From Polynucleobacter sp. 86C-FISCH (lineage in GTDB: Bacteria; Pseudomonadota; Gammaproteobacteria; Burkholderiales; Burkholderiaceae), in contig NZ_JACVOL010000001.1 of assembly GCF_018882415.1 (NCBI RefSeq), positions 706,253 to 770,252 on the forward strand: a stretch of 64,000 nt of DNA, given 5' to 3'. Position 1 is the stretch's first letter. Every line of letters starts with the position of its first letter. Positions 37,761-39,344 of this stretch are shown here, piece after piece. The translations under genes were made by a program, and so were the position numbers. The notes beneath the pieces were generated by a model. The model saw only the letters and a list, made by a program, of their open reading frames with translations. It was not told the DNA's origin and did no database searches.

Positions 37761-38189
37761 TTAAATCTCTAACGCTTTTGGCTGTTGAGCCGCATGCGGA
37801 TGATTGGCGTCGCCGTAGACTTTTAATTTCTTGATCATGGCATAGCCTAGTGGGCCTTTTGGCAACATACCCTTCACAGCCTTCTCCAAAGCGCGACCTG
37901 GGAAACGGTCTTGCATCTTGTCGAAGTTAGTCGAGCTAATACCACCTGGGTATCCGCTGTGACGGTAATAAATTTTGTTCAAGCCTTTTGTGCCTGTGAC
38001 ACGGAGCTTAGAAGAATTGATAACGACAATAAAGTCGCCAGTATCAACGTGTGGGGTGTATTCAGGCTTGTGCTTGCCGCGTAGACGGAGTGCCACTTCA
38101 CTGGCGACACGACCGAGGACTTTGTCCGTAGCGTCAATCACGAACCATTCATGCACTACCTCATGGGATTTTGCAGAAAAAGTTTTCAT
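37761..38189 (-). CDS. rplM: 50S ribosomal protein L13
   Basis: The 142-residue L13 starts [20 protein letters not shown] and contains [18 protein letters not shown] and GMLPKGPLG. It is the first gene of rplM-rpsI. In E. coli the operon is autoregulated through its leader; here an inverted repeat in the leader (38300-38325) is a candidate for such control. Confidence 0.99.
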
Positions 38190-38325: not shown

Positions 38326-38349
38326 CAGTAAAGCCTTGAATTGTAACCT

Positions 38350-38451
38350 AAAAAAAACCCAGGAACGAGTCCTGGGTTGGAATCCACCTATGTTTGGGTG
38401 GAGGAGACACTGGGAGGTAAGTCGCAGTCTTATACAAGACTGACTACCAAT
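38350..38451 (-). ncRNA. Predicted intergenic small RNA with exposed anti-Shine-Dalgarno stretch
   Basis: The minus strand holds every part of a free-standing ~102-nt RNA. The start is fixed by a promoter at 38458-38487. Stem-loop 1 is built on CAGTCTT/AAGACTG (38425-38442) and extended by GGTAGTC pairing with GACTTACC. An unpaired stretch TCCCAGTGTCTCC follows. Stem-loop 2 is TCCACC/GGTGGA (about 38382-38402). The terminator is AACCCAGGA/TCCTGGGTT (38356-38378) followed by Ts to 38350. No ORF with a ribosome-binding site is seen. The unpaired CTCC runs are complementary to Shine-Dalgarno sequences. The layout recalls the betaproteobacterial toxic small RNA family, from memory and unchecked. 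Confidence 0.65.
38356..38378 (-). terminator. Intrinsic terminator of the predicted small RNA
   Basis: A perfect 9-bp stem AACCCAGGA/TCCTGGGTT with loop CTCGT is followed on the minus strand by six further Ts. There is no T-run on the plus strand, so it serves a minus-strand transcript. No minus-strand coding gene lies immediately upstream. Confidence 0.85.
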
Positions 38452-38457
38452 ATGGTT

Positions 38458-38487
38458 ATTCTACACAAACAATATGGTGCAATGCAA
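38458..38487 (-). promoter_or_regulatory. Predicted sigma70 promoter of the small RNA
   Basis: On the minus strand TTGCAT (38482-38487) and TAGAAT (38458-38463) are separated by 18 bp. The -10 matches the consensus at 5 of 6 positions, and the -35 keeps the TTG core. Expected start is about 38451. Confidence 0.6.
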
Positions 38488-38609: not shown

Positions 38610-39032
38610 ATGGATTGTCGAGTATCTTGGTTGGGTAATGGCGGTATGGCTTTTTCAGCCGAAACTGGCAGTGGCCACCTCGTCAACATGGATGGAGCCC
38701 CTGAAGCAGGCGGCAGAAACCTAGCCCCAAGGCCAATGGAGCTCCTTTTGGCTGGTGCGGGCGGCTGCTCTGCATTTGATGTGGTTTTAATCCTACAAAG
38801 GGCCCGTCAGGCCATTAGTGGCTGTGAAGTGAACCTCCAAGCAGAACGCGCCACAGAAGACCCCAAAGTCTTTACCAAGATCAACCTGCACTTTACGGTC
38901 AAAGGAAAAGATCTGGATCAGGCTAAAGTGGAACGCGCCGTAAAACTTTCTCACGAGAAGTACTGCTCTGCAACCACCATGTTGGCTAAAACTGCAGAAC
39001 TAACTTACAGCGTGGAAATCGTTTCAGAATAA
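38610..39032 (+). CDS. OsmC family protein (YhfA-like)
   Basis: The 140-residue OsmC/Ohr-fold protein has conserved cysteines in AGAGGCSAFDVV and HEKYCSATTML. It is closer to the YhfA branch than to the protein at 6988-7377. A peroxide- or thiol-related role is inferred from family. It begins about 150 bases beyond the divergent small-RNA promoter, and its stop lies 5 bases from the 3' end of the convergent RNase P RNA. The gap 38488-38609 is AT-rich and should hold its promoter; no strong match is seen. Confidence 0.85.
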   Translation: MDCRVSWLGNGGMAFSAETGSGHLVNMDGAPEAGGRNLAPRPMELLLAGAGGCSAFDVVLILQRARQAISGCEVNLQAERATEDPKVFTKINLHFTVKGKDLDQAKVERAVKLSHEKYCSATTMLAKTAELTYSVEIVSE

Positions 39033-39037
39033 TAAGT

Positions 39038-39344
39038 GCAGAGTCAATCGATAAGCCGGATTCTGTCGCCTAGATTCGCATCTAGGGGCAATCATTCCTC
39101 TAGGCCGTTAGTTACCTAACGGCTCAAGCTCCCTACCCGCAGACTCAGCGGGACGCCTCATCGCCTGCTTACTTGGGATTGCTCCAGGTGGAGGTTACCG
39201 CGTTTCACCGTAACTAAATACGCTCGTCTCTGTGGCCCTATTCCTCACGTCGCCGTGGATGGCCGTTAGCCATCACCCTTCCCTATGGAGTCCGGACTTT
39301 CCTCCCCCTCAATAAAGAGGCGGCGATTGCCCAATTGACTCTGC
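39038..39344 (-). ncRNA. rnpB: RNase P RNA, bacterial class A
   Basis: The minus strand contains the universal RNase P core: GAGGAAAGTCCGGACTCC near the 5' end and GACAGAATCCGGCTTAT near the 3' end. The P1 helix is formed by GCAGAGTCAAT (from 39344) and ATTGACTCTGC (ending 39038). This catalytic RNA removes tRNA 5' leaders. The length of about 307 nt is a little short for class A. No intrinsic terminator follows, so the 3' end probably arises by processing of a transcript running into the convergent osmC-like gene. Confidence 0.95.

Follow-up and report, generated by a model that had tools for sequence, protein, structure and literature searches.

The window, a stretch of 64,000 nucleotides from Polynucleobacter sp. 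86C-FISCH, contains what appears to be a genuine small regulatory RNA (sRNA) gene on its minus strand, set between the downstream gene rplM and a divergently oriented gene of the OsmC family (Table 1). On the far side of osmC, at 39036-39342 on the minus strand, is an RNase P RNA (RF00010, 242.8 bits), which also occurs in 12/28 rplM loci of other genera. No convincing open reading frame (ORF) was found on the minus strand of the sRNA region, the longest being 29 aa from a TTG start; a sequence-only reading of this DNA had likewise seen no coding gene there. The length of about 102 nt given in that reading agrees with the predicted transcript, which measures 102 nt from 38451 to the last T, and the ATTGG-like start of the predicted sRNA is seen again in other genera.

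Table 1. Features of the sRNA locus in the window, with the basis for each
Feature	Position	Strand	Basis
rplM (ribosomal protein L13), downstream neighbour	37761..38189	-	TIGR01066
TANAAT element directly after the sRNA terminator	38340-38345	-	61/61 genus loci
RF02278 core, double hairpin	38349..38409	-	52.8 bits, gathering 50
Predicted full-length sRNA, 102 nt, rplM-linked long form	38350..38451	-	start 7 nt after -10; end of T run
Intrinsic terminator stem-loop and U run	38350..38378	-	fold, terminator scan (38378-38356 with T run), alignment
Second stem-loop, UCCACC/GGUGGA	38383..38402	-	100% of cells paired, 24 sequences
Seed UGUCUCC within UCCCAGUGUCUCC	38409-38403	-	
Exposed anti-Shine-Dalgarno stretch UCCCAGUGUCUCC	38403..38415	-	unpaired probability 0.93-1.00; near-invariant core
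5' stem-loop, outside the Rfam model	38416..38448	-	paired changes and shuffle test
-10 hexamer TAGAAT	38458..38463	-	sequence, genus alignment
Promoter motif TTGCATTGCACCA, including the -35 hexamer TTGCAT (38487-38482)	38475..38487	-	one exact occurrence in genome; common to RF02278 copies of other genera
Conserved dyad TTGAY-N4-RTCAA	38493..38506	-	strict form in 35/71 loci, near-fixed spacing to core
OsmC-family gene, divergent neighbour	38610..39032	+	NF008009

Anatomy and family membership

The minus-strand RNA of 38350-38487 folds into three stem-loops, and the minimum free energy of the sRNA (-35.3 kcal/mol, z -4.15) was matched by 0/200 dinucleotide shuffles. The fold reproduces the arrangement recognized by eye from the letters, namely a first stem-loop, an unpaired stretch, a second stem-loop and a strong terminator. 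The stretch UCCCAGUGUCUCC, which had been singled out as an exposed anti-Shine-Dalgarno sequence, is indeed unpaired at each of its bases within the 102-nt RNA (Table 1), and its UGUCUCC remains unpaired in a 60-nt form too. The core would correspond to a processed form of about 60 nt if the RNA is cut before UGUCUCC as in its relatives (PMC5688073, PMC11722255).

The window sRNA is a member of RF02278 (“Betaproteobacteria toxic sRNA”), an already described betaproteobacterial family that probably acts by blocking the ribosome-binding sites of genes for nutrient uptake and metabolism. The cmscan search against Rfam that had been proposed as a check returned this model at 52.8 bits, a margin of 2.8 bits over gathering, with model positions 1-64 covered completely. 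The architecture of the family, a UGUCUCC lead followed by two stem-loops of which the second is the terminator, is likewise found in the window sRNA, and the genome of Polynucleobacter sp. 86C-FISCH gave a single RF02278 match (E up to 0.001). Two identities had been left open by the earlier reading, a new family or a divergent member of a known one; the first is ruled out because RF02278 exceeds gathering, and the second is borne out by this score and by the orthology with ncS27 through synteny that is described below. Kimelman 2012 is reportedly the founding paper of the RF02278 toxic sRNA family. Anti-hemB RNA (RF02837) shares a CCUCCC stretch and a terminator with the window sRNA but scored 33.8 bits, under its gathering of 49.5. 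A suggested kinship with CcsR-type RNAs found no support: of the six families in a relaxed Rfam scan (E up to 10), the sole alphaproteobacterial one was ar14, a CU-rich RNA that we take to be linked to the CcsR type, at 17.7 bits against a gathering of 58.8. Among the titles listed by literature searches on RF02278, betaproteobacterial toxic small RNA, ncS27/bdhR1 and Polynucleobacter small RNA, none concerns the window copy.

Distribution, synteny and relation to ncS27

RF02278 is widespread, being found in 137/150 genomes of the bacterial family and in 20/25 genera, and most of the large genomes carry several copies; five of the 13 family genomes without it are 0.2-0.5 Mb in size. Within the genus it was detected in 128/151 genomes, above gathering in 94 and only below it in 34, and in 112/117 of the good-quality genomes. 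No RF02278 match was obtained in 14 control genomes.

The gene order around the sRNA is conserved as well. Seventy-one genus loci were examined, made up of the window, the 30 best-scoring matches and 40 chosen from the match list, and within this selection from the matches the sRNA has rplM on one side and osmC on the other in 59 loci; the other 12 are 10 divergent paralogue loci and two loci at contig ends. Among 28 rplM loci scanned in other genera (one genome, G005, contributed none), 15, from 13/23 genera, carry RF02278 above gathering and 13 do not. For named osmC loci, taken as the best 80 of 579, the core is divergent from osmC in 59 and rplM lies beyond the core in 58. The named loci with the core belong to Burkholderia, Paraburkholderia, Caballeronia, Trinickia, Pandoraea, Cupriavidus and Ralstonia, along with one Protistobacter locus in which the core lacks the second hairpin. 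The core is missing in the remaining 21/80, from Massilia, Rugamonas, Pseudoduganella, Janthinobacterium, Duganella and one unclassified Burkholderiaceae MAG.

Such a position, with rplM on one side and a divergent osmC-like gene on the other, recalls that of ncS27. In Burkholderia cenocepacia J2315, ncS27 is placed at complement(3666557..3666648), between BCAL3348a and BCAL3349 (PMC4603805), and BCAL3348 is counted among the ribosomal protein genes (PMC5688073). Locating the J2315 locus through these papers, we infer that BCAL3348 is L13 and that BCAL3349 is OsmC, so that ncS27 and the window sRNA would each have a ribosomal protein gene and a divergently oriented gene as neighbours, in the same strand layout. 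The predicted long form of the Bcc, including the 5' extension, is 91 nt (counted from ATTGG through the final T in five Burkholderia loci), as compared to a published length of 92 nt for ncS27 (PMC5688073). On the strength of the conserved rplM-sRNA-osmC order and of these two lengths, the window RNA is taken as an orthologue of ncS27, which it very probably is; ncS27 is in turn probably the bdhR1 of PMC11722255. Both RNAs have a CU-rich core, a double hairpin and a terminator, and a 5' hairpin is predicted in the Burkholderia loci also. They differ in the sequences of the 5' hairpin and of the hairpin-2 loop, and J2315 has four copies (PMC4603805) whereas the 2.0-Mb Polynucleobacter genome has one.

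Other described members share part of these features. The S17 RNA of Bordetella pertussis has a related 5' core, reported to be 2 nt from bdhR1, its long form is cut to a short one, and it blocks Shine-Dalgarno sequences via its Site 1, with solute-binder genes among its targets; however, it sits between a glycosyltransferase gene and coq7, has a long form of 190 nt and is Bvg-enhanced (PMC11722255). Similarly, ncS03, ncS05 and ncS62 share the core and two hairpins with the window sRNA but are 57-67 nt long, have no 5' hairpin and occupy other loci (PMC5688073, PMC4603805). Short-form-like RF02278 copies of other genera carry the promoter motif of the window 35 nt before the core.

Conservation extends in part to the 5' hairpin that distinguishes the long form. 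An ATTGG-like start was present within range in 101/135 loci, the remaining 34 being excluded, and an outer stem of four or more pairs starting at +4 or +5 occurs in 52 of the 77 distinct 5' extensions of the 101 loci, whereas 200 base shuffles yielded such a stem in 9.4 on average and in 21 at most. In a covariation set of 24 distinct genus sequences with one extension length, the named structure has five pairs changed on both sides (equalled in 6/500 shuffles) and 15 double-sided change cells (4.3 by shuffling, with 0/500 shuffles reaching 15), and slid controls gave at most five such cells; the number of further pair types was not above shuffling (179/500). Within the 5' stem itself, double-sided changes affect 3/13 pairs and 88.1% of cells are paired, and three of the 13 pairs are unpaired in 7/24, 11/24 and 10/24 sequences, therefore only parts of this stem are supported. 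The 5' stem-loop is thus partly backed by compensatory changes. Alignment of the rplM-osmC gap across relatives, the comparison that the sequence-only reading had recommended, revealed a near-invariant CU core and a second stem that is paired in all cells of 24 sequences, while the 5' stem covaries only in part; the promoter motif, stem-loops and terminator are conserved.

Two types of divergent RF02278-like RNA were also encountered in the genus, neither with rplM or osmC in the fetched flanks. The first (L094, L097-L101; 28-31 bits, below gathering) has the core UGUCUCCUCGGUACC; its second hairpin is longer, and by eye the inner stem of this hairpin shows the paired changes UAGAU/AUCUA, CAGAU/AUCUG and CAGAG/CUCUG, and the shared promoter motif is absent from it; these RNAs possibly form an undescribed RF02278 subfamily. 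The second (L091, L092, L093 and L095; 31-37.5 bits, in four genus genomes) has the core AGUCUCCUCCAUA.

Candidate targets and mode of action

The seed UGUCUCC is complementary to GGAGACA, which has 42 placements before ATG in the genome (two of which share one site) compared with 10 for the reversed pattern. Expressed as a share of GGAG starts, this is 42/1318, only about twice the expected 1/64, and target lists based on the seed are therefore loose. The duplex with a generic AGGAGG Shine-Dalgarno sequence has an energy of -12.9 kcal/mol, versus -12.8 to -13.8 kcal/mol for five GGAGACA sites. The bare anti-Shine-Dalgarno seed was consequently rejected as a target predictor, being weak in view of the roughly twofold enrichment and of generic sequences pairing equally well. 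Twenty-two ORFs of 60 aa or more begin at GGAGACA sites, although some of these starts may be internal; the Pfam scan took in 20 of them, with two short ORFs excluded, and assigned five to solute receptors (TctC three times, DctP and NMT1_3). The genome has 14 TctC genes, three of which carry a GGAGACA site, and the chance expectation of TctC among 20 ORFs is estimated at 0.1-0.2, taking about 2000 genes. The string GGAGACAAGTAATG is identical in 4/4 genomes, a comparison at the string level only. Candidate targets thus appear to include carboxylate-type receptors, matching published work on RF02278: organic-acid transport is enriched among the predicted targets of ncS03 and ncS05 (PMC5688073), the Site 1 targets of S17 include solute binders, and BP2158 is directly repressed by S17S (PMC11722255).

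Most likely, the RNA acts through pairing of UGUCUCC with Shine-Dalgarno regions that contain GGAGACA, which would block translation. In outline, the RNA would be transcribed at about 102 nt and probably trimmed by RNase E to about 60 nt; processing to a short form is reported for both ncS27 and S17 (PMC5688073, PMC11722255). Hfq-assisted base pairing of UGUCUCC(UCC) with Shine-Dalgarno regions of the GGAGACA type would occlude the ribosome, and under nutrient shortage the cell would take up and break down carboxylates, amino acids and other carbon sources to a lesser extent. In published work ncS27 is described as helping to balance the shutdown of metabolism when nutrients are withdrawn (PMC10987360). 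Overexpression of ncS27 slows growth, and antisense to its CU region has the opposite effect (PMC5688073). The earlier suggestion of a growth inhibitor stands as a published family effect on overexpression, probably a secondary consequence of blocking nutrient genes.

Taken together, we consider it highly probable that the window sRNA is an rplM-linked, long-form RF02278 member, orthologous to ncS27, that silences genes with GGAGACA-type Shine-Dalgarno sequences. The computed part of this explanation comprises the family membership, the rplM-sRNA-osmC order, the conserved promoter motif, the stem-loops, the terminator and the exposed UGUCUCC. An elaboration with two targeting sites appears unlikely; in it the 5' hairpin would show a second CU stretch (UCCC) beside UGUCUCC, cutting would turn dual-site into single-site targeting, and transcription in the main clade would be tied to a regulator that binds TTGAY-N4-RTCAA and either replaces or coexists with FNR. 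It seems decidedly unlikely that the RNA is a general translation competitor or growth inhibitor which mimics the 16S anti-Shine-Dalgarno sequence and has no specific targets. The parity of the duplex energies above would fit such a competitor, as would the toxicity on cloning in E. coli that gave the family its name (PMC4603805), but the conserved core UGUCUCC is distinct from and longer than a bare CCUCC, overexpression of S17S did not impair exponential growth of E. coli BL21, and deletion of S17S raised a set of 92 genes (PMC11722255).

Promoter and upstream region

The TTGCAT-18-TAGAAT promoter recognized in the sequence-only reading is present at that place, with its 18-nt spacer. A strict sigma-70 scan of the region called no promoter because TTGCAT/TAGAAT is outside its rule. 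The 13-mer promoter motif TTGCRTYGCACCA, allowing 0-2 mismatches, occurs in 46/60 rplM-linked genus loci compared with 2/1200 shuffled upstreams, and in 33 of those 46 it lies 77-78 nt before the core; this conservation supports a real promoter. The sRNA gene is well conserved, and its transcription in Polynucleobacter sp. 86C-FISCH is predicted.

The spacing between motif and core varies among relatives. In the best-scoring RF02278 copies of other genera, TTGCRTYGCACCA is found within two mismatches in 26/29, at 34-35 nt before the core (L029, in which the core is absent at the expected place, was excluded), and the RNAs of these copies should therefore start at the core. The motif fits 33/59 named rplM-linked loci, lying 63-68 nt from the core in 27, further upstream in two, and 35 nt before the core in four, all of them Caballeronia (4/6). 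The fit is poor (3-6 mismatches) in 26/59 named loci and in 10/15 rplM-linked loci of other genera, only 5/15 of the latter fitting, and Burkholderia in the strict sense and Cupriavidus deviate from the motif. Because the motif stands at differing distances from the core, a single promoter module appears to yield either a short RNA or a long RNA with the 5' hairpin. Four of the six Caballeronia copies (the rplM-linked L210, L213, L214 and L217) seem to have lost the 5' hairpin and turned into the short form, as judged from the motif, which in them precedes the core by 35 nt. PMC5688073 mentions an upstream motif that three copies share (its Fig. S3), perhaps the same as TTGCRTYGCACCA. One-mismatch sites of the motif number 27 in the genome (28 including the sRNA) versus six for the reversed pattern; a wider regulon was not supported, as none of the 19 of these 27 sites that were examined has a -10 of at least 5/6 at a spacing of 16-19.

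Beside the promoter lies the dyad TTGAY-N4-RTCAA, at 94-97 nt from the core in 34 loci and 124 in one, and at 91 to 106 from the osmC start in 34 loci and 198 in one. The dyad is absent from all 10 paralogue loci. Loci L040, L048, L049, L051-L054 and L057 also have no dyad, and share a GTCTTATATAA...TAGGGTAAACCCAAA block upstream of the promoter instead. Control by FNR, which would make the sRNA oxygen-responsive (FnrS-like) within the genus's main clade, was considered since the dyad is conserved but variable in its central bases. The dyad resembles an FNR site, 28 such dyads occur in the genome versus nine for the reversed pattern, and the genome encodes one HTH_Crp_2 protein, an FNR (NF008365, 234.5 bits, cut-off 228). 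However, among the genomes with a fetched rplM locus (G165 excluded), 11/15 dyad-bearing genomes have an FNR protein match and 4/15 have none, while 16/24 dyad-free genomes encode an FNR-like protein (identity 50% or higher); moreover, the dyad is centred near -48.5 from the predicted start, whereas the usual FNR site is centred at -41.5. The dyad does not track the presence of FNR, and FNR is therefore not established as its binder; as a sole explanation FNR control is unsupported, and we regard it as very unlikely.

Regulated L13 leaders exist in other bacteria, and the sRNA precedes rplM, shares its strand and ends in an intrinsic terminator, an arrangement that a terminated leader (attenuator) of rplM, not acting in trans, would also have. 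Such a leader is nevertheless extremely improbable: other genera hold several RF02278 copies per genome, published members are at other loci (ncS03, ncS05, ncS62 and S17; PMC4603805, PMC11722255), the core is anywhere between 246 and 1140 nt away from rplM in the named loci (best 80 of 579), a separate short 5'UTR is listed for BCAL3348 (PMC5688073), and the TANAAT that follows the terminator in every genus locus compared (Table 1) is probably the -10 of rplM, such that the promoter of rplM and the terminator of the sRNA would overlap.

The identification of the window sRNA as an rplM-linked RF02278 member is mostly a confirmation of known biology, in which a partly characterised Burkholderia regulator is extended by orthology to a small-genome relative. 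The present analysis adds the synteny-based orthology, the covariation in the hairpins, the divergent RNAs resembling RF02278 in related genomes, and a promoter module that appears to switch between a long and a short form. Concrete leads are the promoter motif, which long and short copies have in common, and the 5' hairpin, which covaries in part and falls outside the Rfam model. With its one RNA copy in a small genome, Polynucleobacter sp. 86C-FISCH may offer a simpler system for the function of the widespread RF02278 family.
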